DNA of 64,000 nucleotides, from assembly GCF_030867145.1 (NCBI RefSeq), contig NC_134429.1:20321115-20385114 (forward strand), in the 5' to 3' direction. Below are positions 10,944 to 59,940 of the stretch, piece after piece; the stretch's first letter is position 1; each line of letters opens with the position of its first letter. Position numbers and translations under genes: made by a program. This stretch comes from Opisthocomus hoazin (Eukaryota > Chordata > Aves > Opisthocomiformes > Opisthocomidae). A model generated the notes under the pieces. It saw only the letters and a list, made by a program, of their open reading frames with translations, searched no databases and was not told the DNA's origin.

Positions 10944-34959
<24,016 letters not shown>

Positions 34960-35078
34960 TTTGAACGCGACCCACTCCTCGCCCGGCCTCATCGGCATGC
35001 AAATGTATGCGCATACATCTACATACTAAGAAGGCCGGCGCATAGATTATGCGAATGAGGCGGGAGCTGGTTCTCGCC

Positions 35079-36717: not shown

Positions 36718-37421
36718 CTACCAAGGCCTCCAGAGGCTGCCGGAAGGTTTCAGTGCTGCTTGTTTTGCCGGGGGCTGGTGGGTGGAAGCGGGTGCAGAAG
36801 AAGAACCAGAGTCCTTAGGCATTGCTTGTGACCTCTGGAAATGGCAGATCAGCTTCATCCGGGTTTCTGCGTTTGCCGAGTGGAGAGACAGGAACTGCAG
36901 AGCTTCCTTGAGGCACCAGGCATACCCTTCGCAATAATCCTGCTGCAGGCTTTTGGCAGATGCTGCAAAAGCTGCAAGGGCAGAGGAGGAGAGAAGTGTT
37001 ACACGGGGAGACTCAGGCTGGAGTTTTGCCTAAAAGCAAGGGCAGCGTGCACGATGGGGGGCTGTACTCACCTCGGCTGTATTTCAGGTAGCTGACGGTC
37101 ATCTCCAGGATGTCGGCTTTCTCCAGCTTGGAGTTGGGCTGGTGCCTCTGGAACTCCTTCTCCAGGAGCAGTTTCAGCTGCTCGATGCTGCTGTTAATCC
37201 GGTCGCGGCGCAGTTTTTCCACAATTGGCTTCCTGAGCTGTAACACAGAAAGGGAAGAGGACGGTTAGTGTGAGACTTCCCCCTTCCCATCTCTGTGTAA
37301 CTCGCTGCTAAAGGAGCTTGGCCCTTAGCTCTTTGCCCTCGCAGTCACAGAGGCAGCAGATACTTACTCTGTTCTTCTCTTTGGGTGTTAGGATTTCCAG
37401 GGAGAGAGCACTGGGTGCCAT
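36718..37421 (-). CDS. HES5: HES5 (gene A): bHLH-Orange transcriptional repressor
   Basis: Three exons: 37368-37421 ([18 protein letters not shown]), 37072-37237, 36718-36971; phases close and give 157 residues. The basic region contains the HES-specific proline ([17 protein letters not shown]), then helix-loop-helix (SIEQLKLLL...[17 protein letters not shown]), an Orange domain ([28 protein letters not shown]) and a C-terminal WRPW that recruits Groucho/TLE co-repressors. It follows mammalian HES5 closely where genes B and C do not: the bHLH end reads [21 protein letters not shown], like human KHSKAF...KSLHQDYSEGY. It is therefore the best ortholog candidate. It is a nuclear repressor of proneural genes, induced by Notch. 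Introns are about 130 and 100 bases. The chick has several hes5 genes in one cluster; which published number fits this one I cannot say. Confidence 0.95.
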
Positions 37422-37490
37422 TATCCCAAGTGCTGGTTTCAGCTCGGAGCTTGCTGGTGAGCGGGTGGAGAAGGGAGCCGGGAGCTCCTC

Positions 37491-37728
37491 TATTTATACG
37501 CAGCGGCTGCATGCAAATGTATGGGTCCTGGGCGACTTCGAGTTTCCCACAGTCGAGAGCCAATCCACGCACGCCCCGGGACAATAGCGGAGGCATCTAT
37601 TACAGCATGGCAAATCGACTGTGAATTGCCTGGGGATAATACCCTGCTCCCAAAGGAGCAGGTGGACTGGGGAGTGTGGGACACAATAGGGCTTGGCATT
37701 ACCGCGCTGGGGTAAGAACGTGGGAAAG
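37491..37728 (-). promoter_or_regulatory. Notch-responsive promoter of HES5 gene A
   Basis: Read on the - strand towards the gene: a distal GTGGGAA-type RBPJ site (37719-37728, + orientation), SOX-like CTATTGT (37581-37587), CCAAT box in GGATTGGC (37559-37566), RBPJ site GTGGGAA (37544-37550), and TATAAATA (37492-37499), about 70 bases before the start codon. The same elements at the same spacing occur at genes B and C. An ATGCAAAT octamer (37511-37518) sits between the TATA box and the RBPJ site. Factor binding is inferred from the motifs. Confidence 0.85.
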
Positions 37729-39599
37729 CGTTCGCCGTCATTATAATCAAACTTCTGCCTGGTGTTGGGAACGTCAACATCTCAATGTGCTGCTTTTTCC
37801 CAGGCTGTGGTGAAATTAAGCACAGAAGACTGATCCCAGGAAGAGATAATGCTCTGTGCCCGCGACCATAAGAGAGGTTGAAAAGGAAAAGATGCTGAAT
37901 TAGAGGGACTAAACCTTTTCATTGACATTAAACCGTGCTTAGATGAATACAGTACCAGATAATTTTTGGGCAACTAAAGACTAAAATCAAGGGAAGAAAC
38001 TTTAAAGCAATTTGCGCTAAGCAGTTAGGTTAAAATATGTTGTTCTCCATTGTTTAAATACTTTTTAAGTCCCTCTACAAGTTATATTCGGAGCTCTTCC
38101 TTGCCTTTTTAGGGGTAATCTGGGCCTTCCTGTGGTACCCCATGACATGTAATGATTATGATGCCTTTCCCAAACAAGTCTGATTTAATTTCATGCCACT
38201 TTGCAAATGCCTCACGGTTCCCTTGGTCCCGAGTCTCCACGTGGAGCACCTAAATATATTTTCCCCTTACAGATGACTGAGATGCAGTCAAAAGTCAATT
38301 CTTGTCTATTACTCTGCTTGTATTATCCCACTTGCAGAATGTAAATGCAGGTGCTAGGATGTCCGGTGACTCTGCAGTCTTGGGCTTGCTCGGTATTTGT
38401 GCCACGCGTATTGCGATGAACACGGGTAACGAAGTGGAAAGGACCAGATAGAATCCAGGATTAAAGCTGCTTTTTTGAGACTTTTTTTTCAGGGTGTTCT
38501 TGTTTGCCTGCTCAGGTCTGCTGTTCCCCCTCTCCCCAGCACAATCCAATACAAAGCCAGTCACATTTAAGATCTGTCAGTCAGGCATGTGAGGCTTTGT
38601 ATTGACAGATTCCCAGTTACGCTTTATGGTATACATCGTTCAGCGATAGCGTGTGGAGCTCTGTGGGTTTAACGGGAGCTGTGCATGGGCATATTTTTTT
38701 GTTGTTTAATGCGTGTTGTGTGGTCAGAGGCTAGAACAGGGAGCAAACCTAGATTATGCTAATAGGGTGTCAGGTCAGGGATGTTATTTTTGAATATCTG
38801 TTTGTTACTAAGACAAAAACCTGAAAACGAACTAGCGCTCTCCTGTGTCTGTTTCAAAACCAGAAAGGAAACCTTCCATTTCGCTGCCAATTGCAGTCAG
38901 CCTGCTTCACCTGCCCTCAGCATCCCTCTCAGTAAGCCAGGACCAGAACCTGTGTCTGTGGGGATGTAGCGAGCAACGTGTTCCTGCACACATAGGGTTG
39001 TTGCATAAAAGGATATGATCCTGCACAGGATGATCCTGTAACTAGTTATTAACCCGAAGCTTACAAAGCCCCTTTGAACTTCCTGGCTTCTCGTGGCAGT
39101 TCATTCTCCCCTCCTCCCTTTCCAACCCAAAGGTATTTTGTGTTTAGATGGATCACGTAGGGGGTAACAATTTTAATTGCTGATGGTTGTCAAAAACCTA
39201 TAATTGAACAGGGAGTATGAGTCCTGTTCAAAATCAGTTCCCTGAGCTATTTTGTCAGCTTGCAAGCGGCATTATTACTCACGGCCGGGGCAATCCCTGG
39301 CTGCATGTACTTGTGCCATTATTGGAGCGCAAAGTCAAGCACAGGGCTTTGTACGTCTCTCTCGGGTCACGTGAGATGGAGTGGACAGCAGGTCCTGCCA
39401 CGCACCGTACGGCAAGGAATATGTTTGCAGCAGCAGCGGGCAGAGCGAGATGGGAGGGAAGCTTTGACCCAATTTTCAGTTCTGGAAATATGAAATGAGT
39501 GGGTTTAAATAATGCCATCCTATCCCCAGCACAATGCCCCTGCGCTCCAAAGGGCTAAACCAGCTCCCAGTGATTAAAGCATTAGCCCTTCCTTGAAGT

Positions 39600-39735
39600 G
39601 CTGGGCAGATGGTGCAGCAGGCGTTGGCTTTCTTCTCGGGACCCACAGAGGCACACTTCTTTTGTTGGCAGTTTAACACTGTGAATGGGGCAATGTGGGA
39701 AATCCTCGCAAGGGTGGACTTGCACCATCTGATGT
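39600..39735 (+). promoter_or_regulatory. Repeated Notch/proneural module, copy E1
   Basis: E-box CAGATGG (39606-39612), block GGCACACTTCT (from 39650), and RBPJ site GTGGGAA (39695-39701). The CTAATG block present in the other copies is missing and the E-box is about 35 bases closer. A second, inverted E-box (CCATCTG, 39725-39731) closes the module. It lies 2.1 kb upstream of gene A, antisense to it. Confidence 0.7.
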
Positions 39736-41529
39736 GAATGGTGAACTGGGCACGCTGCCTTGCAGCCAGCTCGCAGACAACAGCCCTCTGGGCTCACAAA
39801 CTCCCAGCTTCTCTCCCCCTCTCTCTGTCAGCTGAAAAGATAGCAAAGCTTCGGCTCCCCCTTGCTTCACCTACCCTCTGTACGCTGTTGATGGAGAAAA
39901 GAGAAACAAATATCTTCCCTTGCCACGTCTGGTTTGATTCTTAAGGCCTGAAAACCTAGTGGCAATGATATTTCCCAACTGATGCTTCAGAATAATAAAT
40001 TTTCTAGACTAAGGCTGTCCCTAGAATATATTCGTTATGGAACAGGGTGCAGTATGCACTTTTTGCAAGGATTTTGGTGACGAAAAAATTCCTGTGCCTT
40101 GGGCAGTTCAGTTGCTCGTTGTTAAAAGTCTGTAACTAGTTTGCTCAGTTTGCGCTTTTTTAAAATTCAGCTGTTGGCGCAGTTGTCTGTCCCACAGAAG
40201 CACGTGTTTGATCCCAATCCTTGTCACTGTCCTTCATCTCTCTGGGAGGAGTTTGTGCTTCCCTCTGACTGCTGATGCAGAGCCAGAATGAAAGATTGAT
40301 TGATTGAGGCTCAGAAGCAGGGGTTTCCCTGGTTTTGGAATGAAGGATTGAAAGAAACAAATCCCAAAAACTGCCAAACATGTGGAGTTGACTAAATAAT
40401 GTTCACAGACCAAATAATGTTGACTAACTAATGTCTCCCTTCTTTGGAGGCTGGTGTAAAATCTGGACCTGCTCCTGCGAGACGACAGCTATGCTGTGGG
40501 CAAAGAGGCTTCCTTTCTTGGTGGCCTTGTTCCACTGTAAATCACATCACAGCCGTGAGCTGCATCGTGAAGATGCAGTCTTCAAAATCACACATGAAAG
40601 CAGAGAGGGGTCTCCACCCTGTCTTGGTACAGATACGAAAAGCTTAAGGGGAAACAGAATCTGCAAACGATTGTCAGTATCTGTACTTACAGACCTCGCG
40701 TCTCGGGCAGGAGTCCTGGCTTTTCCTAAGGCAGGAACCACCACGTTGTCTCCGACTGTAGATGCTCACCCTTTGACCCTGAGCTATGGTGTGCAGTCTG
40801 TGTGCCCCAGATTGCTTTGAGCTGAGGAGCAGCCGCAGAGGAGCCGGGAGAGGTAACTCGCCAGCCCCAGGACTATCATCGGTAGGCTTGTGTTCACCAT
40901 AGCCCATCAATCAAAACAGCTGGAGGACCGTGAGTCTGGGAAACTGGTACTGGGCTACGGAGCTTTCCGGTACGCAGGTGGCAATTTCAGCCCAGGTGCA
41001 GACTTACTACATGTGCTGTTTTCACCAAAGCTGCTACTACTTGTAATACCAATTGGCAGCTTTCTTAGCCCCTCTGATCCGTAGCTTTCCGTGGAGAGGA
41101 ACCCGGTGTATTGCAGTGCAGCAACAGGTCGGGAGGAAAGCGGGCTATTAGATCAGAGTACAGAAAACCAGAATTTCATTGTCTATGTTATGCAGATCTA
41201 AAAAGAAGTGCTCCTGTACATCTGGGGCTGTACTTACAGCAAACAACTTGATGGCTTAAAGCTTTCCTTTCTGTCTCACTTTTAGAGCATTTTTATTTTA
41301 GAGCATTTTCTACATTCATGTCAGACTGTCTCACAAATGCTATTGATGGCGTTTTTAAAGAAATAATTACGATTTTTATTTTTTCTGTGCCTTCCTTAAA
41401 TGGTTTAAAATCTTTCTGACAACCCCTCTCGAGACACCTATTTAGTGTCAAAGAGCATAACGTTCCCAAGTTTTAAAAGGGCTCTGGCATAATACTGATC
41501 GATCAATGTGCTCCTTGGGAAAATAGCTC

Positions 41530-41705
41530 TCCAGATGGTCTATCGGGACAGGAATTGCTGGTCATCACAATGCAGAGCCAAAAAGCGTCACTAATGTGGG
41601 CTGTTGTGAGGCACGCTTCCTTTGTGGTCCCTTTGAATGTCATAAATAGGGAAGAAAGTGTGGGAAACTCTGAGAAACTCAGGCCCACACTCTGAGGTTA
41701 ATAGG
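41530..41705 (+). promoter_or_regulatory. Repeated Notch/proneural module, copy E2
   Basis: E-box CAGATGG (41532-41538), GTCACTAATG (41587-41596), GGCACGCTTCCTTTGTGG (from 41610), and AGTGTGGGAAACTC with RBPJ core GTGGGAA (41660-41666). A trailing block with CCCACACTCTG follows. It lies 4.1 kb upstream of gene A, antisense to it. It shares CACAATGCAGAG with copy E5. Confidence 0.8.
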
Positions 41706-44700
41706 GGCTTTGTCAGGAGAGTATTCCTGGGCTGTGGGATCAGCATAATAAACAACATCTTCCCTAAGGGCGGGAATGTGCTGGAGCAGGGGAGGGTCAC
41801 CCCAGGGGATGGAGGAGCAAGAAGCAACTTTGCGTTCAATTAGTACGAGTGATAATAATTAATAAATTGTAAACATAACCTTTGCTGTGCGAAGACTGGT
41901 GAAACTGGAGGTCTGGCTTTTAGCTCTCAATTAATTGGTAAATTAAAGTCCACAGGGGCACGTCTTTGGCTGGCGAAAAACAGAAGCAGTGCACTTGCAC
42001 CAGCCATGGATCTTGACTCCCTGGAGCAAATGGAGGCTTCCTGGTGGGGTTTGGTTTCTCCCCCCTGCCCAGAAAGAAAGCGCTTGCTGTTTCCTTCCCT
42101 TAATACCACTCTGCAAGCGGTAGGTCTGAATCTCACGTACGCCAACAGCTGAGCACGATCGGCTCCCCCGCTATAGCCGGAGCAATGCAATACGGCCTCC
42201 GTGTAAATGCGAGTCAGACCCTGTGGTCTGAGGGACGGTGGCTGTGTCTCTCCAGGCTTGTGCCAATATGGGTGGCAGGAATTCTGGGCTGAGAAGCCTG
42301 ACTGGGAGCTCACTGGGGTTTTGCACAGTCGTCACTTCTATGGCCTGTTGTTGTGTTACCCTAGAACTGGAGGGACCGGGTTCAAATCCAGCAGTTTCCA
42401 GTTTGTGCAGCTCTTATTTGGGTTCCTTTTCTCTTTTCTGCTTATGCTGTCAGTTTTAAACGCACTGCAGTGATGCTGCCAACTGTGACCTTCACATGTG
42501 GTGTACTGGGGTGGTGCCACATGAGCTGCAGATGCCACATAACAGCAGCAGACCTCTCCCTGCCCCGTGTGACTCCATTCCTCGTCCCTGTGGTGCACAG
42601 TCAGGTTGTGCTGTGCTGTGGGGCACGTTGCATTGTGACTGAGTCTGAACTCCCTCAGACTTCCTATCCGCAAGCTAGGCTAGATTTCAGAATGCCCAGG
42701 CGTGGATGAACAGCTGGAGTTTTGCTGGGATTCAGAAGCTTCTACTAATTGACAAAGGCAAGTTGAGCACAGCAAGGTGGAGTGACTTTTCAAGATCACT
42801 TAAGTAGCCACAAATTCTAAAAATATCTCTTCTGAATTATTTAGTCGTTCGTTAAGAAGCTCAGCTCTATCTGCAGCATTGGTATCAGCTCCTAGTGAAC
42901 TGCAGGACTACCAAAACCCCACCTTGTATTGCACTGGCAGATGGATGAAGAGCACTCAACCATCTTGTGCGTTCAGGGTAAAGTAAGAACCAAAATGATT
43001 CACACAGCCGTGATGAGGTAGAGCACTACGTTCGTGACCTGGCTAGCTGGCTTTTTGGTCCTTTCCATACGTATAACAAAGGGTTTAATTACAAATCATG
43101 TGAGGACTGGCCAGGTGCAGCTAGCAGTGTTTAAATGCAGTTTGATCTTGTCGGTTTATCAGATCTGAGCCTGCTTAGTGCTTAACTAAGCAGCCATTTG
43201 ACAAGATCAGATCTTCTAGGTTTCCTTTCATTTAAGGAAAAAAAGCATATGTTAGAAACAAAGTTTTTCATGGCATCTCTCCCAGGGGATCTGAGGAGAG
43301 CTGAAATTGTTGATCAGTGGTGTTTCATGCTGTTACTGGATCTCTGGAAGAATGAGAGGGTTCCCTGTCACATACCCAAATCAATGTGTTGCCGTGGTTA
43401 GATAACAGTTTTGTGAACTGATTGCTTGTGCGGATTTGTTTTACGTTGAAGAGAAGGGAAAATAAGAGGTTAATAGTCCCCACTGAGCAATGAATGGGAA
43501 CTCTTCTGAGCAAAAGTGAGTGACTGTTACTGGGGAAAGTGCTGTGTTTTGGAGAGACTTGGTATCTAAGGCGCTCGAGGTGGCTTTAGGATCCACTTCT
43601 CGTGCTTTTCTTCCTGCTTCCCCAAACACATTCTGAATCCCTTTTTGCTTGTTCACCTCAGCCCTTCCCTCTTTGTGTAGCTGTGTGGGAGCAGGGCAAG
43701 CACATCCCTTAGAGCACATGCTCCTCTTCCTCGCATCACCAGAGCGTGGCTGAATTCATCCTTGGGAGACAGGAATCACGGCCCACACGCAGGGGATCGC
43801 AGAAGGGGCTTGCAGGGCTCGAGCGGAGACCGCGCAGGGATGCTGCAGTGCCTCTCTGGCTGCTTCCCTTGGGTCACCCAGCTGGTGCCAGCCAGGCAGG
43901 CTGTTGTGAGCCGCTGTGTAAAAGGATATGCTAGACTGGTTTTCTGAATTGAGACGGGGTGAAAAAATCAAGGGAGGCTCAGCTAAAAGATTCTTGGCAG
44001 AGAAACCATCTCTACAACAGGCTGGATAGAAAACATCTTGAAGGCCTGGTGGAGAGTGGCACTTTCTCAACTCTGAGGCGCAGGCCCTATTCATGGTATG
44101 TTTTGGGCCCTTAGGTGGATGTCGGAGAAAGAGAATAAACTGTTTGAAGAAAAGAGTATGGGGAAATAATTTCAGAGAGGAAATGCTTTTTCAGTCTCTG
44201 TTTGCTATCAAATTATGTATACTTTTAGCCATATATGGGCAGATTTCCCTTCAGTAAAGAAAGCAATCCTGTTGCCTAACAGAATTTGTGTTTAGGTAAT
44301 AGAAGGTGCGAAAATTAAGAGACAACAAAAACTAGTTCACCCCATTGCAGGTGGTTTGAAAGAGGAGGATGAGATCCCCAAGCAGAGTCAGGTGCCAAAC
44401 TCTTTGGAAGTTATTCGGAGTTTTGCATGTTGCTACCTCCTAAATGGACAGAAAGTACAAGACTGAAGCCAGGTTGGTGGGTAAAGTAATGGGCAATGGG
44501 TGGAAATAAACAGGCTGTGAAATTAGTGCTTTGCTGAAGCCTGGAGAAGTTGCTGTTAAGTATCTGGGTCTACGCCTCTCAGTATCTCACTTCAATTTCA
44601 CCTCCATTTTAATTTTTGATGACTGTTCCAGAGGTTGCTTCTTTGCAGGATCTGAAATCCTGTTCTGCCAAATGAACTTCACAAATACAAACCCTGTACT

Positions 44701-44834
44701 GGAATGAAGGGCTCAGAAACACTGCATCTCCTCCTAGCTTCCCCACTGCAGGAGGAGTCTACATCCTGCGCTTCGTTCAGGAGTATTAGCCATGTTAGTG
44801 ATTTCAAACCAAAGGATTAGTGACTAAAACCATT

Positions 44835-44840
44835 TTTATT
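44835..44840 (-). terminator. Poly(A) signal of HES5-family gene B
   Basis: AATAAA on the - strand lies about 800 bases downstream of the gene B stop codon. The stretch 44841-45638 is then gene B 3' UTR; I see nothing else in it. Confidence 0.6.
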
Positions 44841-45638
44841 GTATTGAACAGTGAAGACACCAAAGTTGAACATCACACAGGATGAATACATCGCAACTTT
44901 ATAAAAGCTTTTTAAGCTCTTGAGCATGTTCAGTGAATGATTATAAAGTAGTTGTTGCCTCCCTTCCTCCCCCTTTTCCTCAAGGTATATCACAGGCGTT
45001 TCCTTTACAAAAGGCATCGATTCTCCCTCAACTGAGAGCAGCACATACTGACATGAAGAGAGTTTTCCCTAGAGCTATCTGTTCTCATCACAGCTTTCTG
45101 TAAGAAGGTATACTAAAAATAGCATGGGAACTTCAGAAGAATCAGCATTACTTAATAGCAACTTTCACTCAAAAGGTAAAGGCTCAATAGTCTCTTTATG
45201 ATACAAAATACATTCTTCAAAGTGCTCCTTCTTTAGGAAGGTCAATACATTGTCTGGAGACAATGGAGCACTTGAACCAGTGACCCAAGGAGTTAGTAGA
45301 AAGATTTCCACTGCCAGCCACAGGCTCAGCAGCCTTGCCACGCAAAAGGGCGATGGAGACCGAAGGGCGTTTGGCTCTCTAAATCACTGCGGAACTTGGT
45401 CCTCTCTTTGGCTGGGAGCCACCGATAAAAGCAGCAAATTTGCTGCAAGACACAAACACATTCCTTCACTATGAAGGGAAACAACTCAGTGACCCTCATT
45501 TCTTGTGACAGAAAAACAATAACTGCCCCCCTCCCACCTTTGGAAAGCAATGTTTCCTACTTTAAAGAGGAACTATTAAATCACAGGTCCCTCTAGTTTT
45601 TGTAGCAAAACATAGGAATAAAGCGAAGTCGAACAGGT

Positions 45639-46583
45639 CTACCAGGGTCTCCAGATGGTAGGAGCAGCAGCTGTGGTCTTCTGGGCAGGTTGCTTCCTGG
45701 CTAACAGACAGGGTGACAGAGGTGGACTACGCAGAGCCAGCGAGTACAGGACATCTGCACCCAGCTGAGCCTTGCAGAAATGCTTGAGTAGCTGCACCTG
45801 GGTTTCCTTCTTGGGTTCGTAGTAAGACAGAAAATGCATAGCTTCCTTGAGGCACCGCAGGTATCCACTGTTAAAGTCTTGCTCTAGGCTCTTGTGAATG
45901 AACGCTAGAAAAGAAAGGAAGAAGCAAATGCAGTGGGTTAAGGTCATGGCCAAAACATGGCATGGTGGCAATAAGAGCCCGTGGGAGCAGCCTTCACATG
46001 GTGTGCAATAGCTGCTCTGCACTCACCTTGGCCCTGCAGCTGGCTCTGCTGCTTCAGGTAGCTGACAGCCACTTCCAGGATGTCGGCTTTCTCCAGCTTG
46101 GAGTTGGGCTGGTGCCTCTGGAACTCCTTCTCCAGGAGCAGTTTCAGCTGCTCGATGCTGCTGTTAATCCGGTCGCGGCGCATTTTCTCCACCACCGGCT
46201 TCCTCAGCTGTAAGAGAGGTGGAGCAGATTGTTAAGGATTTTCTGAGACCTGACCTACTTTCCCCTGCTGATGCCCTGATATACACGTGTTCAAAGATGC
46301 TTTCTTTTGGTAGAAGAGCTTGGTCATGCTGCCTACATGTTCCCTGCTCAACTGAATTTTTATGAGCCTATACAGTCTCCTGTATCTCTTTAACCTCTTT
46401 GCCCTCCCCCAGAGCACTTTCTCCCTCCTTGTCTTGTCCCATGTAGTATTTATTTGAGAGCGGCAGCGCATTGCACAGGGCGCAGACCAGCCTTTCCAAT
46501 CCTGTCAAGCGCTCTACTTTATTCTTTTCTTTTGGCAGCAGTTTCTCCTCCATGTGGATCATGAGGGTGGTACTGGGAGCCAT
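45639..46583 (-). CDS. HES5-family bHLH-Orange repressor, gene B
   Basis: Three exons: 46518-46583 (MAPSTTLMIHMEEKLLPKEKNK), 46027-46207, 45639-45904, giving 170 residues. The bHLH is intact with the HES proline ([17 protein letters not shown]), followed by a KQQSQLQGQ extension not found in gene A, an Orange-type segment (YLRCLKEAMHFLSYYEPKKETQVQLLKHF), a divergent linker and terminal WRPW. The KQQSQLQ type resembles frog and fish hes5/esr/her paralogs more than mammalian HES5. It is expected to act as a Notch-induced nuclear repressor. The 109-nt core of exon 2 is identical in DNA to genes A and C, whereas exons 1 and 3 are clearly divergent. It is probably one of the chick hes5-1/-2/-3 set, number unknown. 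Confidence 0.94.
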
Positions 46584-46673
46584 TCTTCGTGCTCTCGGCG
46601 CTGGGCAGAGACCCCCACGGTGGGCTGCTGTGCCGAGCGTAAAGGCTGCGCTTCCGTGCTTACCGACTGCCTC

Positions 46674-46900
46674 TATTTATACGTCGGGGAGCTTCAGCAG
46701 AGACGTGAGTCTGGGGATGGCTGGTGTTTCCCACAGCCACGCAGCCAATCCAGGCCCCCAGCTGAACAATAGAGGAAGCCTCTGTTAGCGCATGGTACAC
46801 TGAGTGCAAATGCCCCGGAGAGAATAACCTTCTGCCCAGGCTGACTGGTGGAGCGTGCGGCGTGGCTCTTTGGGGCTGCCCAGGGATCTGGGAAAACGCT
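46674..46900 (-). promoter_or_regulatory. Notch-responsive promoter of HES5-family gene B
   Basis: On the - strand: a distal element with CTGGGAAAACGCTGACC (+ orientation, near 46888), CTATTGT (46766-46772), 14 bases, GGATTGGC with the CCAAT box, 9 bases, GTGGGAAAC (RBPJ core 46728-46734), then TATAAATA (46674-46681) 53 bases on. The start codon follows about 90 bases later. The order and spacing match genes A and C; binding factors are inferred. Confidence 0.85.
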
Positions 46901-47497
46901 GACCCTCCAGCTGCTTGTCTGGGACGCGCTGCCTTCCCGGGGCCCTGCGTGTGCCCGTCGTGTTGGTGGCGTGGAGGAGGCACGCGTCGGGGGGAAGGAG
47001 GGAGAAGGAGGAGAGGGGGAGCACTGTTAGGGTCAAGTTCAACAGCACCAGGGCATCTCTCGACCCGTTCTAGAGAGGGCACGTTACAGACGGCCTCCCA
47101 GGTGCCATCTGCCAGCGTGTGGGTGCATTTGTACTGGTCGATCCAGTCATCACACTGTTAACGGGTGAGCCAAAGTGTCACTGGTGTGAAGCGACAGGTT
47201 GGTTTGCACAGTGCTTCTAAATGCTGTGGAGAATCTGCAGTCGGGCTGGTGGGATGTTGGACTGACAGGGTGAAGAAAGAGGGAGTGGGAAGCAAATGGA
47301 AATGGTGACTCTGTTTCTCTCTTTACACGCTGAGGTCTGTGAGCCTGTTGCACCAGTGTTCCCATTGCCTTTATTAAGGACAACCACCCACCTCCTAGCA
47401 GAACTGGGCCCATGCCTAGTCACCCCGCAGCTCGCTCTTGTCCCTTCTCAACTCTTTCTTTCATATGGGCATTTACAAGAATGGTGGTTAAGGTGGG

Positions 47498-47678
47498 CTG
47501 ACAGAGCCCTGGAACAGGCTGCCCAGAGGGGCTGTGGATTCTCCTTCTCTGGAGGTATTCAAGACCCACCTGGACGTGGTGCTGTGCAGCCTGCTCTGGG
47601 TGACCCTGCTTGGGCAGGGGGTTGGGCTGGGTGACCCACAGAGGGCCCTGCCAACCCCAAGCATTCTGTGATTCTGTG
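47498..47678 (+). mobile_element. CR1 LINE, short 3' fragment
   Basis: Only the last 180 bases of a CR1 tail remain: gagccctggaacaggctgcc, through ggtgaccctgcttgggcag, to the terminal attctgtgattctgtga. It is in + orientation and strongly 5'-truncated. Confidence 0.92.
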
Positions 47679-47924
47679 AAGAATAGCACCAGATTCGACT
47701 CAGCAGCCCTAGCCTTGGGAAGTCAGAGGCATGTTGTGAATGGGATTTAGCAGCAGAGGCCCATCTTCAGACCTCACCAAGGAGGTCAGTTCTGCTTCTT
47801 GCAGAGATTTCTGGTGTGCTCCGGTCTCGTCTGACCAAGGAGCATCGCACTGCCCCGCTGCAGAACGGACCTGCCGCAGTTTGCAGAACGTGGGATCTCA
47901 GAGACCACCTGGTTGCCTCCCTGT

Positions 47925-48010
47925 GTAACCTTCAGCATGTCATCCCCACTCCATTTCCTTAGCTGGAGAAGGGGGATAGTGCTGCTTGCTTGTATTTGCA
48001 TGACAATTTC
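47925..48010 (+). repeat. MIR-like ancient SINE relic
   Basis: The run 'aaccttcagcatgtcatccc...catttccttagctggagaagggggatagtg' follows the order of the MIR 3' half (gaccttgggcaagtca, cagtttcctcatctgtaaaatggggataatag). It is heavily diverged. Identified from memory of the consensus. Confidence 0.4.
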
Positions 48011-48827
48011 AGTTAAAATTAAGCAAACATTATTTCCTTTGTGGTAAAGGCAAGAAAAAGAATGAAGCTGTGTGGACAGTTTAGGTCAGTTCTGATTTTG
48101 TCTTACAGGAAAAATCTCTGCCTGGATGCAGTCCTTGAGGCAGCACCAAAAATAACCCAGGACCTACCTGAGGAGAGCTGCGCTGCATCGTGCCGTCTGA
48201 GCATCGAGCCGGCAGCGCCCGGGGCAGGGGCATGCTCATCTGCTCCCTGTGTGCTGCTTGTGAGGATCTGGAAGGGGAAACGCTGGAGGGAAGCGTGCAG
48301 TGAGGTGAGAAAGCCACAGAAAATTTCTTACTTGGAAATCCTGAAGTGAAGCCTGAGTTTAATGGGGAGTTGACAGGAAGGAGGGATGTGTCACTGGAAT
48401 CGCCAGCTCTGTGGATTTCATTGTAGGGGTCTGAATGGGCTCAGCTCTTTGTTCAGGGCAGATGTTGTCCTCGGAGCCCTTTATTCCCTGTGTTGTGGGA
48501 AAGCCAGGAGACGAGACATCTCATGAACACTTTGAACCGGTCAAAGGATTATGATACAAAGTAAGATACAGCTCAGAGACCGTGCCCTAGCTTTTGCCAG
48601 CTAAAAGAAGGTGTTGCCCTTTCTCCTGTACTCTTTGGCTGGCCTTCCTCCCGAAGTCCTGTGTTAGCCCTCTCCTAGCAAGGGAGCAATGGTGGCAGGC
48701 CTTGAAGCTAGGAGCAGACAGGTAGACATGTACCAAACTACCTGAAGAGACTCGTCGGTGTCAGAAAACCTCCCTTCCCCAGCTCCTGAGAAGCAGCCCT
48801 GACCTTTATTGCTGTATTATAACTGAT

Positions 48828-49010
48828 AGCCAGATGGTCTTTTGGGAGTTGGATTCTTTCCCTTTAAATCATTCAGGCTCAAGCACCGTCACTAATGTCG
48901 TGAGTAGTTGCAAGGCACACTTCTATTGTCCCAACAAGAAATGTTATCAATGGGGGAAAAGTATGGGAAACGCGGAGAAATTCAAACCCACGCAGCCTGG
49001 TGCTAATAAC
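48828..49010 (+). promoter_or_regulatory. Repeated Notch/proneural module, copy E3
   Basis: E-box CAGATGG (48831-48837), CACCGTCACTAATG (CTAATG 48892-48897), GGCACACTTCT (from 48914), and TATGGGAAAC (core TGGGAA 48964-48969), followed by AAACCCACGCAG. The RBPJ core has A in place of the first G found in other copies, which may weaken it. It lies 2.2 kb upstream of gene B, antisense to it. Confidence 0.78.
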
Positions 49011-49334
49011 CCCTTTGTGGAGCCTGCGCTCCTGTCGAGGCACCATGATCTCACATGGTTTTTTTCACCACGTAAGGCTGAAAAGTGCAGGTTTGGCCGT
49101 GCAGGCAGGGGCTTCTCGGATCTCTTCACGGGGCGGTGTGGGGCGAGGGGGCAGAGGGTGGGCAGCGGGCACACCGAGCTCAGCGGCGGCACTGGCTGAC
49201 CCGGGGGCTGCTGCTTTGCATCCCCCTGCCCCGGTTTGCTCTGCTGGGAAACGGGAGCGGTGCTGAGCCGGGGTCTGTCGGGGGGTTAGGGAGGGGGCTG
49301 AAGCAGCCCTGTGCTTTTCTGGCATCAGTTAGCG

Positions 49335-49768
49335 CTACAAGGATGGTGAGGGGACTGGAACATCTCTCCTACGAGGAGAGGCTGAGGGAGCTGGGCTTGT
49401 TCAGCCTGAAGAAGAGAAGGCTGAGAGGGGACCTAATAAATGCTTACAAATATCTGCAGGGTGGGTGTCAGGAGGATGGGGCCAAGCTCTTTTCAGTGGT
49501 GCCCAGCGACAGGACAAGGGGCAACGGGCACAAACTGAAGCAGAGGAAGTTCCATCTGAACATGAGGAAGAACTTCTTCCCTCTGAGGGTGACGGAGCCC
49601 TGGAACAGGTGCCCAGGGAGGCTGTGGAGTCTCCTTCTCTGGAGATATTCCAGCCCCGCCTGGACAAGGTCCCGTGCAGCCTGCTGTAGGTGACCCTGCT
49701 TTGGCAGGGGGGTTGGACTAGATGACCCACAGAGGTCCCTTCCAACCCCTACCATTCTGTGATTCTGG
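49335..49768 (+). mobile_element. CR1 LINE, 5'-truncated 3' tail
   Basis: It begins at ctacaaggatggtgagggga and runs through the full 3' tail (ctgggcttgttcagcctg, gacaaggggcaacgggcac, ttccaacccctaccattctg) to the terminal attctgtgattctg. It is in + orientation and relatively well preserved. Peptides read across it are not host genes. Confidence 0.95.
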
Positions 49769-51099
49769 GTACTGCTGAATCCCCAGGAGAGCAAAGTGGA
49801 GGAGCAGCAGCCCTGGGGATGGTGCTCCTCTGCAGTGGAAGTGCTACTGGTGGCCTCTTCTCGCCGTCTCGCTGGGGAGTTTCTGTCCTCCCCATCCACT
49901 GAGAGCCTGGCAGAGATGCTTCTTCCCCGGGACACCCCTTTGTCATCTCGGCTGCCAGGGCCTTGCGGGGTCTGTCCTGCGTGCAGTCTGCTCTCAAGCA
50001 GGCTTGGCTCTCCTTCGGGCCAGCCCACAGCTAGCCTTGCTGGTGAGGCTTGCTGATGTGGGGAGAAGGGAAGGCTTTTTAGCACCAAGCTAGCTCTGAT
50101 CTCGCTTTCACAGGGGATGCGCTAGCGCAGCGTCACTGAGGAAGACGGTGGCAATGAGAACACCGACCAGGGTCCCAAGGAGACCTGTCCTGACACGTCC
50201 ACATGGCAACTGAATGCTTGATAAAACTACTGGGTCTGTATGTTGTGCCACACTGCTGCCTTACTATTGCCAGGTGGACGTGTCCTAATGTTTAAGATTC
50301 TTGGATTTTAGTGCTGCAGATCCCTGCAGTGTTACCACATCCCTTCATCATCCTCATACTCTTATGACCGGGATCTTGGATAAGGTCTGAAAAGACAGGG
50401 TGCTGCCAGTTTGAGGTGAACCCCACAGATCCTTGGACAGTTTTCAATCTAGGAGCCACGGCTTGTTTTGGTGTCACAGACGAAGATCCCTTCTCCCAGC
50501 CCCCTCGGCGCACCTAACCCTGCCTACCACGTTCTGCTCAGGGTGTTTCAGTGATGTTGCATTCTACAGAGTAAATAGTTTAAAAAATGGTTTGGCTTGG
50601 GAGGTGGTATATAAAGAAATTATCCTGCAGAACTTGCTATTCAGGACTGGCTTCTCCTGCCCTCACAAGCCGAGCATAATTCTGCTGTCTGAACCAACAG
50701 AGCAGAAGCGTAGTGAAATCTGCCGCTTTCAGGGGAAAAGGTTTTGTTGTTATTAGACCTATTGTATAAAATATTCCATTAAATGTCATTAGCATGGCAT
50801 TATCTTGCCTCCTTTAGACATTAGAACCCTGGCAAAAAGGGGTCTCTTATTACTGTAAAGTACATTCTTCACGGATTTAACCTTTTTTAATTAATTTTTC
50901 TTTAGATCCAGAATGCTTAATATACTGCCGCTCCCAGGTGTGTAAGTGAAGGAAAGCGGACTTTGATCATTAAGAAACATATGAGACAATTTGATCTGCA
51001 TTTTCAGGGTTGTTAGAGGCAGAAGCAATTTCTGTAGCTGCTTGTGAGGGTGACCCTGAAATAGTCGTGCACCGAGGACATAGTCTTTCTACAGTGAGT

Positions 51100-51345
51100 A
51101 TTACACGTAATTAAAAATTAAGGAGAATTTATTATTTTTCTGCCCAGCTGAAATTCCCACAAGGCACCTCTCGGCATATTCAAGAGTGCACAAGAGGGAT
51201 TTATTATTTCCTGGTATATTGACTCTGAAAGGTCTGGGGATTACAGCTGCTTTGCACATGAATAGCTGGAGTGTGTTGTACAAAAGGCATGGGCTGTGGG
51301 ATAATGGGCTTGGATGTGGGAAAGCGCTGACCCTGGGGGAGAGCA
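51100..51345 (-). promoter_or_regulatory. Ghost HES5-type promoter without a coding body
   Basis: On the - strand: CTCTTGT (51190-51196; CTATTGT with one change), 14 bases, a degenerate CCAAT position, 7 bases, then GTGGGAATT (RBPJ core 51154-51160). The CTATTGT-to-RBPJ gap is 29 bases against 30, 31 and 30 in genes A, B and C. Upstream, the run gagggatttattat...gactctgaa...tctgggg aligns with gene A's gaggcatctattac...gactgtgaa...cctgggg. The distal element GATGTGGGAAAGCGCTGACC (51314-51333) matches the distal elements of A (acgtgggaaagcg) and B (aacgctgacc). The TATA box is not recognisable, and I found no bHLH, Orange or WRPW sequence in the kilobase to the left. It is best read as the remains of a fourth cluster gene, or a promoter reused as an enhancer. 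Confidence 0.7.
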
Positions 51346-53879
51346 GGCTGGTGCCTGATGGCAGGAATCAATTATGTCTCAAAGGAACACATTGCCCCGG
51401 GAGCAGGCTTTGCGGGAGCCACCACGTTATGTGTTTACCACCCTCCTCCTTCAGAAACCCACACGGAACAGCCACAGAACGTATCCTAACTTTCTGCTTT
51501 TGCCGGGGGACTCGGCTGCACCTTGCTCTGCAGCTGCGCCAGTCAGTGCTAGGTTAGCTCTGATCTCGGTGACGTGACTGCTCCGCACCTCGGCCACAGG
51601 GCAGGGACCCCGTTTGGCTCCCACGCGCTGCCGGAGGGGTCTGAGGTTGGCTCTGAAGCACCCCAGACACTGCTGAGTTCAGTGGGAGCACACGCTGCCC
51701 GGAGCCCCCTGCAACACGCAGACCCCCGTCCCCTGCTCGGCTCTGGGCAAGGCAGGAGGACAGCCTGTCGCTGACAGGAGGGCAGGGAGCGAACACAGAA
51801 GAGTTCAGGCACTTCCTTCCTTGTTTTGGGGTTTTTTGGGAAGACAGTGGTATTCTGTTCTTACAACGGGCTCAGCATCTCCGAGGATCTGGCATCACTG
51901 CCAGCTTTTCAAATGTCAAAATTTGGGCTTCAAGAAATGGGCTGAAATTCATAGGGATTTAACAAAAACATTTTGATGTTTCTAATAAAAATAGAAGTAT
52001 TTTGATGGATTTTTTTATTTATTACTGAGCATTTGGACTTTGTTTGGATTGATATAATTAATTGTTTCTCTTTATAGAATCATGAGGCTTGGACGTGAAG
52101 TCTTACTGAAGGCCAGCAGTATTATGCGTCTCGTGATAAGAATCACAAGGCTTACCAAAGAGTGCTGCCAAGCATTTTGGCAGGGAGAAGGTGTCCTGCA
52201 GAGCGAATATTTCAGAGGAGCAGGTTGAGAATTGGGCGTGTGGTTCCTGAGGTCTGGCCCCGACAACCGCTTGCTGTCATTGACAAGATGGAGATGGTGT
52301 GTTCGTGCCAGATAGGAGGGCAGTCACCTCTCCCCTTTTATAAGAGCAGCAATTAATCCTATCTGCATGTGTCAGACATTTAATCACTCAACTCCTAGCT
52401 AGGGCAGCGGTGGAGGGGGGAGATAAGTCACAGACTTCCCTGGTGTCCCCTGAGCCTCATTTGATTGTTCCCTACCTTGGGACAAGTTTGTAACCTGCAG
52501 CTGATTCTCTTTTACACCCCAGCAGATTTATTTATGCCCCTTCCCTTGGGCTCAGCCTGAGCTTTGAGATGTAAGCGCCCGCGGGATCCACGCTCTCCTG
52601 CTTGGCGGCCGTCTGTCACCGTGCTGCGGGGCACAGTGGACCTGTGTCTGGAGAAACTGTCCTGGGGCTCGGAGTCAGGTCCTGCCCTGCCAGGCATGTG
52701 GGGTTTGGAGGACTGAGGAACATCTCTGCTGTGTTCAGCTGGCAGTAGAAGGAAGAGATCATGTCTGAGAAAAGCAAGCACCTGCCTTGCAGGCAAGAAT
52801 GGTTTTTCCAAAGCTAGATAACCTAGTTAAGAATAGCAAAGGGGCACATGCAAGAACTGACAGACCTTGGTCCATTCAAGGCAGAGTTGGATGCCCTCAT
52901 CACTGCACCACAGGGCAAGGCACCTTGTCAGATGCTGGGATCGGGGGAATCCAGTGCAATAAACAGAACCAGACTCTGAAGAAAACAGTCCATAGAGGGT
53001 TAAGAATAGGACCAGGACCCCCAGAACACCTCCGGTGTAGCTGGTAGCACGAAGCCCCCGGGAGCTGCCACCAGGAGACTGGGTGGACGACTCCTGCTTG
53101 CGATCAGTGACCAGCGCACAACACTGCAGCTGCGGATGGCACCGGACTGCTGCCTAAAGCAGTACGGCTCCTTTCTCCTGTCGAAGTCACTGGTTTTATT
53201 CAGGCCAAGTGTCCAAGGCCTGAAATTCCCTTATAAACTGGGAAAGTTTGTGTAACTCGGGGCACACCGCATCCTCTGCTCCAAGGAGCTCCAAGCCCGG
53301 AATAACCGTAACCGCTGGGACGCCGCTGATCAGAATTAGATGCTGCTGACAGATGGATCTGCACAAGGACTAAGGACAGCTGCAGCTTAAGGCTGAGATT
53401 TTGGTAGGTCTTTAGGAGTGTGAAAAAACAAATGCAAACTTAGTTTACTTTCTAGAGAGATCTAGTTGGTTTCTGTCCAATAGATCATGGAGTATTTCCT
53501 GATCCAGGGTTTGAGTGCATCTTCCTTTTCAGCCATTTCCTGGGCTTGAACAAATTGTCCTAAATAACATTTTCAAAAACCACTACTGAACTTTAGTCCA
53601 AAGGAGAACTTTTGCATCTGCTGATCTCGGTGGTGCATGACTGCAAGTGTGGTCCAGGCCAGTAATCCAAATTCTCCCACAAGCCAGGGAGTTGGCTCCT
53701 TTTCAGAGAAGCCAAAGCTAATTAAAACAAAAGTGGGTGCTGAGCATCTTTGCAAACCAGATGTCTCAAATAGCCCCTTGGCAATAGAAGCACTGCAACC
53801 AGTAGGCTGTGTGAAATACTGACATTTTGGTTTTCTCCTGTCGGCCTTATTTTTCTTTCTTTGTAAAACATTGCTAATA

Positions 53880-53962
53880 ATACGTCCTTATCTCACAGAG
53901 GAGGTTGCCGAGAATTCATTAGCTGGTATTTGTAAAGCACTTTGAAAATGCAAAGCCAGTGC
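53880..53962 (+). repeat. MIR-like ancient SINE relic
   Basis: The run 'ccttatctcacagaggaggttg...gtatttgtaaagcactttgaaaatgc' resembles the MIR-family segment 'acctcatagggttgttgtgag...tgtaaagcgcttagaa'. It is heavily diverged, with no target-site duplication visible. Confidence 0.4.
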
Positions 53963-54207
53963 ATTATTCCTAGTCTCCTGGATGCTTTCCATGTTATTAA
54001 AATCAGGATTTCAGAAAGGCTTATCGGGGATCAAAACAGCATCCCAAACTTGAAAGGAAGCAAGACTGTTAAACCACCAACGGTCGCCTCCCCCTCCGGC
54101 CAGATGTTAAGCCCGAAGGAGCTGGAGTGGCACAAGGAATTGCTTTCCCAAGTTCCCCCAGCTGGGCTGACAGGCCCTGATCAATGGTTTTCTCTGCAGT
54201 GAGTGCT

Positions 54208-54390
54208 ATGCAGATGGTCTACCCAGAGCAAGGGTTTTGTGCCGTACAAAGGGAAGTCAAACACCGTCTCTAATGCAGCTTGTAGCATGGCACACTTCCT
54301 TTATCCCCCGCCTGAATGCGGTGAATAGGGGAGCGGTGTGGGAAACTGGAAGGGACTCCAAACTCACACAGTCTGCGGGTCTGTGAGACA
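54208..54390 (+). promoter_or_regulatory. Repeated Notch/proneural module, copy E4
   Basis: E-box CAGATGG (54211-54217), CACCGTCTCTAATG (CTAATG 54270-54275), GGCACACTTCCTTTAT (from 54289), and GGTGTGGGAAACTGG with RBPJ core GTGGGAA (54338-54344), then a trailing CTCACACAGTCTG. Orientation and position (3 kb right of the ghost promoter) are what a module belonging to the lost - strand gene would show; it could also serve gene C. Confidence 0.82.
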
Positions 54391-55894
54391 CTCCTGTCCT
54401 CAAACCACATCTGCCTGTGACAGACAGAGGGGGGAAAGAGTGACAGAATGAAAAATCAGATTATAAAAACTTCATGAAGGGAAAATAAACCCCGAGTAAA
54501 AGGAAAAAGTGAAGGACGCTATGCAGACCAACAGAACTCGTTCCGGGTGCAAGCAGGGGACTGCCAGGCAGCAGGGCGAGGAAGGGCCGGGAGGAAAAGA
54601 TAGGGGAAGGAGCTGCAGGAGCAGAATCTTGCTCACCCAGCAGCGAGGCTGAGGAGGAATGTCCCACTGAAGGTGGCAGAGGTGGTTTTGGCCCACACTG
54701 AGACCTCTGAGCTGCGGACTCTGTTAGCCTCTGTAATTCCCCAGATTTGTTTAACGTGTCCTGGGAAACACAGACCCTTGATATTAGTCAGGCTGCTTGT
54801 AAGCTTATGCACACTGTTGCAAACAGATACAGAAGCTCCTCCAAGCCTTAATTACCCTGGCATGTTAATCTGAATTGCTGTTTGCTGTGATTTAAACACA
54901 GGGTTTATACACAGGACCGGTTTCCCCCTGCCAGCTTGGAGATCCTCTGCCGTAGGTGAGGCACTGCCCAGCAGGAGAACGTGGTTTTTGGCCCGGGCTC
55001 TCCGTGGAGCCACTGGCAGGTACCGAGAGACCCTGGTCCCGGTGCTGCTCGGCAGTCGGGGTGCCCAGACCCCAGGCTGCTCAGTCCCTCTGTCTCGCTA
55101 TTCTTGTTATCGAAGGCCGGCCTGCCCGAGTGCGACGGCACCCACCGCAGCCCGTCACCCGCACCGGTACCGCAGGGCGCCGATTCCCGAGCTCCACGCG
55201 TCGGTTTGTGCGCTCACCTTGAGCGGGGGTGGAAGTACGGAGCCCTGAACCACAGCCGGGCAGCCACCACCGCGGATCTGCAACGGGATTTTTGTGTCTC
55301 CTTGCTGCACAGTGCGGAGGGACACAGATGGCTCCTGTGGACCACGAGGATATCGTGAGACTTTCCTACAACCCCTACTGAGCTGTAGGAGCTGGGCTTG
55401 GCTTTTGAGACAATTAGATCAGGTTTTCTACCAGTAATATTATGGGGAAGCTTTTCATTAATACTTCTAAACTATTTTGTGTTGCTTGGATGAAAGGAAT
55501 GGGAAACAACAGACCAGAGTCCCGCATTTGGCAGGTGAAAACTCAGGCTCAGATTTTGCTGATTACAGTTTTGACAAATTCTGCCATAGGTGTAGAGGTA
55601 ATTTGTATCTATACCAGTTTATGGGAGATGAGGAAATAGCTCTGGAGGTAGAGTCCAGCAGCCTGCTCCACTCTTCATGGAGTCCAAAGTTTCTGTCGGC
55701 TTCAGTGAGGATCCAAGTAGGGCCCTTAGGCTTGGACTCATTTTATTTCTCACCTCCGGATGATCTGCAGGGCTTGGCACGACTCGAGTCTCCTACCTTT
55801 TGCTGTCTTTCCCGTTCTCTATTCAGAAGCATCGCTCCATCCCTGCTCCCAAGCGTTTTAGCGTTCTAACTGACTGACTAACATAAGGCTGTGG

Positions 55895-56050
55895 AAGTCT
55901 GTGTACCTCCGAGTTTCCCACACCATTTCTTAACTATATTCATTCCTGCCACAAAGGAAGTGTGCCTGCCTACAAACCACATTAGCAACGGTGCTTGCCT
56001 CTGCATTGTGTTCAGTGGGAAACCCCGCTCCCAAAAGGCCATCTGGGCAG
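55895..56050 (-). promoter_or_regulatory. Repeated Notch/proneural module, copy E5 (inverted)
   Basis: On the - strand: E-box CAGATGG (56039-56045), CACCGTTGCTAATG (CTAATG 55980-55985), GGCACACTTCCTTTGTGG (from 55966 leftward), and GGTGTGGGAAACTCGG with RBPJ core GTGGGAA (55915-55921). It carries an extra GTGGGAA on the + strand (56015-56021) between the E-box and the CTAATG block. It lies 4 kb upstream of gene C, antisense to it. Confidence 0.82.
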
Positions 56051-56599
56051 CACAGGTCGGGAGAGACGCGATGGGAGCAGCGAGCATCTCTCAAGACTTG
56101 GGAAAGCAGCAGCATCGTTAAGTCTCCCTAAAGAGCTAACATCTGGCTGAACTTCTGGGGCAAGGCTACTGCTAGTGCTTGATTTCAAACATGTTCCTCA
56201 GATCCCGTACCTTGGGGTCCTAGTAAGTTCTCTGTGCACTGCGGTGTATGTTTGGAAGCATAGTGGAAGAATTCATTATCCTTAGTGTAAAGTCCACTGA
56301 CTGCTGACTTTTCAATAGGGAGGAATTTTTGTTATCACTTTTCTTGAGGATTTCCAAGGAAAGCAGAAGCAGAGCATCTATTCTGGGTAACTGAACATCT
56401 GAGTAACTCTTCCAGGACAGTCAGTAACTGGCTATTTTTTCCCCTCACAGATTGTGAAACCAAAGAGAAAATAAACAGCTATTTTAAATATATGTTTTAA
56501 TTTCTGATGCTTTAAAATTTATGTGTCACAGAGTGAGGAAGTAGGAACCTCAGTGGATTTACCATCTGGGGGAGATTTGCTACATTCACCATTTGTATA

Positions 56600-59695: not shown

Positions 59696-59841
59696 AAGGC
59701 CAGCTCGTTCCCAGCTTCCGACGCCGCAGTTCTGATCCCAGGCTTTCACGTAGCGCTCACTCCCCACCTGCTCATCTGGGAGAAGGTCATTATCCCCCCG
59801 CTATTCACCGGCAGCGGAGCGTGCGAGAAGAGATGCTGCTC

Positions 59842-59940
59842 CTATTGTGCTGCCCGTCTCCCGGATTGGCCGCGGAGTGTGGGAAACTCCGCCGAGCCGG
59901 AGACCCACAGGCTCTGAGCGAGTCTGCACGGTATAAATAT
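59842..59940 (+). promoter_or_regulatory. Notch-responsive promoter of HES5-family gene C
   Basis: CTATTGT (59842-59848), 14 bases, GGATTGGC with the CCAAT box (59863-59870), 8 bases, GTGGGAAACTCC (RBPJ core 59879-59885), and TATAAATA (59932-59939) 53 bases on; the start codon is about 77 bases further. The grammar is the same as at genes A and B. A distal CACGTAGCGCTC (near 59749) may be the decayed equivalent of the distal RBPJ element. Confidence 0.85.

Follow-up and report, generated by a model that had tools for sequence, protein, structure and literature searches.

Five homologous copies of one module in the HES5 cluster of Opisthocomus hoazin, one of them the bird orthologue of the enhancer Hes5(e1)

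Introduction

What are the blocks of sequence that recur among the HES5 genes of a bird, and do they belong to a known control element? The question is raised by a 64,000-nucleotide stretch of the Opisthocomus hoazin genome (RefSeq assembly GCF_030867145.1, contig NC_134429.1, positions 20,321,115 to 20,385,114), here called the window, whose own coordinates are used throughout. An earlier note, made from the letters alone, had read five intervals of the window as one module that pairs a proneural E-box with an RBPJ site, in five copies sited with the HES5 genes. We report here that the five intervals, E1 to E5, are diverged, homologous copies of one element lying among three HES5-type genes (hes5A, hes5B and hes5C), and that E3 corresponds, in this bird, to the enhancer published as Hes5(e1). 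Published work is cited from parts of the papers named.

Results

The five modules are 139 to 182 bp long.
39597 to 39735, forward strand: module E1, shortened and without CTAATG; profile match of 72 bits to a model that includes E1
41523 to 41698, forward strand: module E2; leave-one-out E 2.6e-29; genome-wide match of E5 (E = 1.4e-10)
48822 to 49003, forward strand: module E3, the bird orthologue of Hes5(e1) by primers and probe; leave-one-out E 4.8e-27
54202 to 54379, forward strand: module E4; leave-one-out E 7.9e-26
55881 to 56052, reverse strand: module E5, inverted; leave-one-out E 2.4e-32

Homology was assessed by building a profile from four copies and searching the window for the omitted fifth. 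All five were recovered, E2 to E5 at the values listed and E1 at 1.4e-6 with a match covering only part of it (39648 to 39703); matches outside the five copies had E values of at least 0.15. Pairwise identity is 54.7 to 69.8% over 133 to 177 aligned bases (10 pairs). When 800 bp of flank was added on either side, six of the six pairs among E2 to E5 aligned (E 0.01), and the alignments ended no more than about 2 bp from the module edges, so the likeness is confined to the module. Each motif is common in the window (CAGATGG 16 + 7 and TGGGAA 36 + 28 times on the two strands), as a chance assembly of common motifs would need; that explanation is refuted by leave-one-out E values of 1.4e-6 to 2.4e-32, and we give it a negligible probability. 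The leave-one-out searches and pairwise alignments thus bear out the earlier reading of one homologous module in five copies among the HES5 genes. As to an origin of the module from a promoter, the profiles match the promoters of hes5A and hes5C weakly and in the RBPJ part only (E 0.16 to 0.99).

The blocks of the modules lie as follows.
39606, 41532, 48831 to 48837 and 54211, forward strand, and 56039 to 56045, reverse strand: E-box CAGATGG, in all five modules
41591, 48892 to 48897 and 54270, forward strand, and 55980 to 55985, reverse strand: CTAATG, in four of five modules, none in E1
39650, 41610, 48914 and 54289, forward strand, and 55966, reverse strand: GGCAC(A/G)CTTC, in five of five modules
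48914 to 48930, forward strand: GGCACACTTCTATTGTC block of E3, GGCAC(A/G)CTTC followed by a SOX-like stretch, from the alignments
39696, 41661, 48964 and 54339, forward strand, and 55920, reverse strand: TGGGAA, the RBPJ core, in all five modules
48962 to 48969, forward strand: RBPJ site TATGGGAA of E3

These are the places at which the earlier note had put the recurring blocks, and the inverted orientation of E5 and the lack of CTAATG in E1 were likewise confirmed. With its TAAT core, CTAATG is presumably a homeodomain-like motif. The GGCAC block of E2 at 41610 reads GGCACGCTTC, and in four of the five modules GGCAC(A/G)CTTC is followed by TTTGT or ATTGT, which we take to be a SOX-like motif; E4 has TTTAT. 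The RBPJ site reads TGTGGGAA in E1, E2, E4 and E5. Among the modules, exact GTGTGGGAAAC is found in E2, E4 and E5 only (E1 has AATGTGGGAAAT and E3 has GTATGGGAAAC), and a further exact copy stands at 59877, inside the hes5C promoter.

Spacing from E-box to CTAATG in E2, E3, E4 and E5 is 59, 61, 59 and 60, and from CTAATG to GGCAC 19, 22, 19 and 19, agreeing with the ranges first claimed (59 to 61 and 19 to 22). From GGCAC to TGGGAA it is 46, 51, 50, 50 and 46 in E1 to E5; the near-fixed spacing stands, and the range of 45 to 50 given before is corrected to 46 to 51. The E-box and GGCAC are 44 apart in E1 versus 78 to 83 in the other copies, so 34 to 39 bp, including CTAATG, are missing from E1. 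Near-fixed spacing is largely expected from common descent with few insertions and deletions, and spacing alone is no proof of constraint. Of the aligned columns, 75 of 169 (E2 to E5) and 45 of 131 (all five copies) are invariant, and the invariant columns cluster in runs of at least 5 (p = 0.005 and 0.0001, respectively, in permutation tests that ignore the relatedness of the copies), which upholds the claim that the blocks are kept better than the sequence between them.

E3 was identified by published oligonucleotides. The cloning primers of chick Hes5(e1) lie at 48695 to 48714 (2 of 20 mismatches) and 48955 to 48974 (1 of 20), flanking the E3 E-box, and the mouse gel-shift probe lies at 48817 to 48848 with 28 of 32 bases identical; elsewhere in the window it matches at most 20 of 32. 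The RBPJ-side primer of the mouse amplicon has 5 of 18 mismatches at E3 and 4 of 18 at E2, and the second primer of that amplicon fits nowhere well in the window (6 of 21 mismatches at best). E3 is sited between hes5B and hes5C, inside the cluster. Because the chick primers and the mouse probe match there, E3 is the bird orthologue of Hes5(e1); E1, E2, E4 and E5 would therefore be paralogues, not orthologues, of mouse e1. A lack of cross-species conservation, named beforehand as a refuting outcome, did not occur for E3, which is conserved to mouse. As a separate observation, a pair of CR1-like stretches, 86% identical (47496 to 47676 and 49587 to 49767), flanks E3.

In the parts of PMC5811045 drawn on here, Hes5(e1) is an element of about 200 bp that lies upstream of Hes5 in mouse (by 7.9 kb) and of HES5 in human (by 10.5 kb) and mid-cluster in chick, with a chick-mouse identity of 53%, rising to 87% over a 46-bp core. 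It is an Olig2 chromatin immunoprecipitation site at a place to which RBPJ binding has also been mapped in mouse, its E-box is bound in vitro by Olig2, E12 and Ngn2, and in mouse progenitors the element coprecipitates with both Olig2 and Ngn2. When the E-box is mutated, activity drops and expression enters the Olig2 domain, so that the E-box serves both activation and, through OLIG2 homodimers, repression; expression of the three chick HES5 genes all fell when Olig2 was misexpressed (PMC5811045). Hes5(e1) resembles E3 in its E-box CAGATGG, its RBPJ site, its size and its place inside the HES5 locus; it is treated in those parts of the paper as one element per locus, whereas in the present cluster it has four paralogues. 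The earlier readings of TGGGAA as an RBPJ site and of CAGATGG as a proneural-type site are supported, with the amendment that the E-box is also an OLIG2 repressor site (PMC5811045). Proneural plus Notch logic is thus not new at a vertebrate HES5 locus, having been published as Hes5(e1), here E3; OLIG2 is an input that was missed, and the novelty of the array itself stands with respect to the open-access literature.

Distribution was examined by DNA searches of the whole genome (1.48 Gb) with E3 and E5 as queries; E2, E4 and one pattern were outside the query set. E5 finds itself and E2, and E3 finds itself alone. The pattern E-box-CTAATG-GGCACRCTTC occurs at five places in the genome, four of them E2 to E5 (reversed-pattern control, 0), and the sole place outside the cluster resembles what we take to be a CR1-like stretch. 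The E1-like two-block pattern occurs at 10 places, one being E1 and nine elsewhere (reversed control, 1). The profile, run against 35 loci that total 245,907 bases and take in the 100 kb to either side of the window, returned only the window copies, the rest having E values of at least 0.28, and no further module copy was found within 100 kb on either side. Against prokaryote contigs the two-block pattern gave at least 117 stretches, taken as chance; that query was poorly chosen and is uninformative. Membership of a dispersed repeat family, the other refuting outcome named beforehand, would fit the CR1-like remnants on both sides of E3, but the whole-genome queries give cluster places only, four of the five three-block places are in the cluster and no extra copy lies in the adjoining 100 kb. 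This explanation was disfavored by the E3 and E5 queries and the block patterns, which diverged copies could escape, and we consider it very improbable. Within the searches made, the modules are restricted to the HES5 cluster.

Each HES5 gene also has a core promoter.
37487 to 37652, reverse strand: hes5A core promoter, homologous to 46670 to 46838 of hes5B and 59758 to 59916 of hes5C by self-comparison

Self-comparison covered 35 to 64 kb at E 0.001, with pairs classed by eye. Among the 14 listed pairs, four are bHLH (basic helix-loop-helix)/Orange exons, three core promoters, five modules, one CR1-like and one a G+C-rich inverted pair (63.5 kb). Core promoter identity is 69.6% over 171 for A-B, 68.7% over 163 for B-C and 82% over 45 for A-C; the module pairs are 68.9 to 71.4% identical versus 68.7 to 69.6% for the two longer promoter pairs. 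All three promoters contain TATAAATA and TGTGGGAAAC, with a SOX-like ATTGT upstream. Sox2 acts on the mouse Hes5 promoter (PMC5825848), and the HES5 core promoter, as covered in parts of PMC7685452, PMC3201213 and PMC5825848, has Notch and Sox2 input and resembles the modules in TGTGGGAAAC and, at about 16 bp from it, a candidate weak inverted half-site. The promoters here differ in carrying GGATTGGC and TATAAATA adjoining the gene start (no search of the modules for TATA or CCAAT boxes was made, and ATAAATA occurs in E2), and the modules differ in their distance of 2.2 to 5.7 kb to the closest HES5 start codon and in carrying the E-box, CTAATG and GGCACACTTC blocks.

The modules were also scored for a second RBPJ half-site.
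48985 to 48992, forward strand: AACCCACG, candidate second half-site of E3, RBPJ-like, weak and inverted, gap 15

An RBPJ sequence-paired site (two head-to-head high-affinity sites with a gap of about 16) was considered and rejected, as the modules have one strong site only. In vitro, a gap of 15 to 17 bp gives a workable RBPJ pair, 16 being preferred, and the HES5 promoter site is cryptic (PMC7685452, in part). With this literature gap range, the inverted consensus was scored after TGGGAA in the five modules and three promoters. Partners matching 6 of 8 consensus positions stand at gaps of 15, 15, 16 and 17 in E2, E3, E4 and E5; E1 scores 4 of 8, and the promoters score 5, 6 and 6 of 8. Gaps 15 to 17 are the best of 34 three-gap windows (sum, 45 of 64; best non-overlapping window, 35). 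Shuffling gave p = 5e-5 for the five modules and 0 of 20,000 with the three promoters added, in tests that take related copies as independent when they are really two families agreeing. This counts against the half-site, as do the single-gap mean score, which is highest at gap 9 (4.0, with 3.2, 3.8 and 3.1 at gaps 15, 16 and 17), the want of the consensus TT in the partners of E2 to E4, the poor partner in E1 and the report that isolated cryptic HES5 paired sites showed no dependence on NICD dimerization in reporters (PMC7685452, in part). The candidate weak half-site in four of the five copies would be a further likely input. The published chick Hes5(e1) amplicon ends at 48974, some 5 bp beyond the RBPJ site but short of the candidate half-site at 48985, and so excludes the weak second half-site of E3.

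The HES5-type genes were located by tblastn with human HES5 as the query.
36718 to 37421, reverse strand: hes5A; tblastn, Pfam HLH and Hairy_orange; bHLH, Orange and WRPW
45639 to 46583, reverse strand: hes5B; tblastn, Pfam HLH; bHLH and WRPW, Orange under the Pfam cut-off
60016 to 60800, forward strand: hes5C; tblastn, Pfam HLH and Hairy_orange; bHLH, Orange and WRPW

Pfam HLH is present in three of the three proteins, and Hairy_orange is above cut-off in two of them; in hes5B it scores 21.6 bits versus a cut-off of 25.3. The Orange domain of hes5B (45639 to 45920) is diverged, and the function of hes5B may be shifting. Three HES5 bHLH exons were found in the whole genome (E of at most 0.001; 12 candidates scored), all within the window, and no further HES5 gene was found within 100 kb on either side. 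An open reading frame at 34459 to 34998 (reverse strand) presumably represents PANK4 exon 1, which it resembles, and hes5A is the HES5 gene closest to it. Chick has three Hes5 genes in about 20 kb adjoining Pank4, a cluster like the window in gene number and neighborhood; the accounts of it, in the parts drawn on, cover genes and promoter, versus the distal modules here (PMC3201213, PMC8320183). No convincing place was found for the Vilas-Boas forward primer or for the Sagner 3′ untranslated region primers of HES5-1 and HES5-3 (best fits, 6 to 9 mismatches), so chick gene names rest here on position only. A near-identical 3′ untranslated region primer is named Hes5-1 in PMC3201213 and HES5-3 in PMC5811045, in the parts available, which makes chick HES5 naming inconsistent.

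The three bHLH exons (37083 to 37243, 46053 to 46213 and 60251 to 60411) are 94 to 97% identical in DNA. Of the comparable fourfold sites, 18 of 18 are identical for B-C, 15 of 17 for A-B and 16 of 18 for A-C, and the promoters are only about 69% alike. This likeness points to gene conversion, or else to selection acting directly on the DNA. Elsewhere in the window, exons at 6479 to 8489 appear to us to belong to a kainate-type glutamate receptor gene (one open reading frame scanned in that region had no Pfam match), and there are open frames that we take to be CR1-like.

hes5A has E1 and E2 upstream of it, hes5B has E3 and hes5C has E5, each module running antisense to its gene; E4 is antisense if paired with hes5B and sense if paired with hes5C. 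From start codon to module center the distances are 2.2 kb (hes5A-E1), 4.2 kb (hes5A-E2), 2.3 kb (hes5B-E3), 7.7 kb (hes5B-E4), 5.7 kb (hes5C-E4) and 4.1 kb (hes5C-E5). This arrangement would fit a joint duplication of genes and modules, with hes5C and E5 inverted as one.

Discussion

The five modules are best explained, and we think probably so, as paralogous copies of Hes5(e1) that were duplicated with or within the HES5 cluster and kept, at least one upstream of every HES5 gene. They are real and homologous and probably functional, with activity predicted for E1, E2, E4 and E5; for the mouse and chick element, activity, OLIG2 and NGN2 binding and, in mouse, RBPJ binding are data of others (PMC5811045, in part). 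In the mechanism proposed, hes5A would be served by E1 and E2, hes5B by E3 and perhaps E4, and hes5C by E5 and perhaps E4. NICD-RBPJ on TGTGGGAA would provide the Notch input, possibly aided by the weak inverted half-site 15 to 17 bp off, and the CAGATGG E-box would act as a switch between NGN-type/E-protein activators and OLIG2 homodimer repressors. SOX input is likely, judging from the motifs, and the SOX and homeodomain-like blocks may confine activity to neural progenitors. Jointly, the copies would give the three HES5 genes the same control: Notch-on, proneural-boosted and OLIG2-off. With an e1-like module at each gene, the joint fall of the three chick HES5 genes under Olig2 would be expected.

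Should E3 alone work, the other four would be decaying leftovers of the cluster duplication. E3 is indeed alone in matching the mouse probe closely, and E1 has lost a block; yet the short blocks are near-identical in E2, E4 and E5 while the sequence between them has diverged, likeness among the modules equals that among the core promoters, and E2, E4 and E5 keep exact GTGTGGGAAAC. We judge this alternative quite unlikely. Besides the points raised on the half-site, several weigh against paralogous copies that were all kept. The mouse probe has 12 to 17 of 32 mismatches at E1, E2, E4 and E5. E1, which lacks CTAATG and 34 to 39 bp, may be decaying; none of its four flanked pairs passes E 0.01, and neither E1 nor the E3-E4 pair is among the listed self-comparison pairs. 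The longest invariant run is not significant in E2 to E5 (p = 0.113; 0.036 for all five). The E3 query missed even the other cluster copies, so such DNA searches would miss any diverged copies elsewhere, and the vertebrate genome searched was that of O. hoazin only. No literature was found on function or cross-species conservation of E1, E2, E4 and E5.

On the age of the copies, the 32 bases around the E-box of E3 differ from mouse at 4 positions and from its own paralogues at 10 to 14. The simplest reading of E3 being closer to mouse than to its paralogues is a separation of the copies that preceded the bird-mammal split. According to Kuretani et al., the jawed-vertebrate ancestor already had a hes5 cluster, which was reduced to one gene in mammals (PMC8320183, in part). 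We tentatively propose, with slightly less than even confidence, an array of gene-plus-e1 units that predates the bird-mammal split, of which birds would have kept five e1 copies and three genes and mammals the E3 orthologue only, all copies still being Notch/NGN/OLIG2 switches. A rival on age, compatible with paralogous Hes5(e1) copies, is that the modules were copied in birds or sauropsids only and look old through fast divergence or gene conversion. It draws on the possible sequence exchange in the bHLH exons and on the single HES5 gene of mammals, with e1 as the one described mouse element (PMC5811045, in part). Against it stands the closeness of E3 to mouse (4 of 32) over copies in its own genome (10 to 14), a comparison from one short stretch, the 18-base RBPJ arm being non-discriminating (mouse differs from E2 at 4 and from E3 at 5 positions). 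We hold this rival to be somewhat unlikely.

A multi-copy e1 array was not found in the open-access literature (titles and abstract openings, supplements excluded), nor is one described in the available parts of PMC3396596, PMC10859470, PMC12935429 (without Hes5) or PMC6597611 (a chance word match), and a literature search for exact GTGTGGGAAAC gave no Hes5 paper by title. E1, E2, E4 and E5, and an array with an e1-like module per HES5 gene, thus seem undescribed in that literature. Enhancers of the Drosophila E(spl) complex combine paired Su(H) sites with a proneural A site. That complex is like the array in repeating Notch and proneural sites at several clustered bHLH repressor genes; it differs in that the mouse and chick E-box also serves repression by OLIG2.

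Five natural variants within one locus show which bases are kept: the E-box, CTAATG, GGCACACTTC with its SOX-like stretch, the RBPJ site and the weak half-site. The kept blocks point to further candidate inputs of Hes5(e1), namely, the GGCACACTTC block and the half-site outside the chick amplicon. The modules may serve as markers of the reduction that left mammals with a single HES5. The array offers a simple reason for three bird HES5 genes answering OLIG2 together and, if the older origin is true, an ancient array with a shared switch would explain the joint OLIG2 repression of the three chick HES5 genes.

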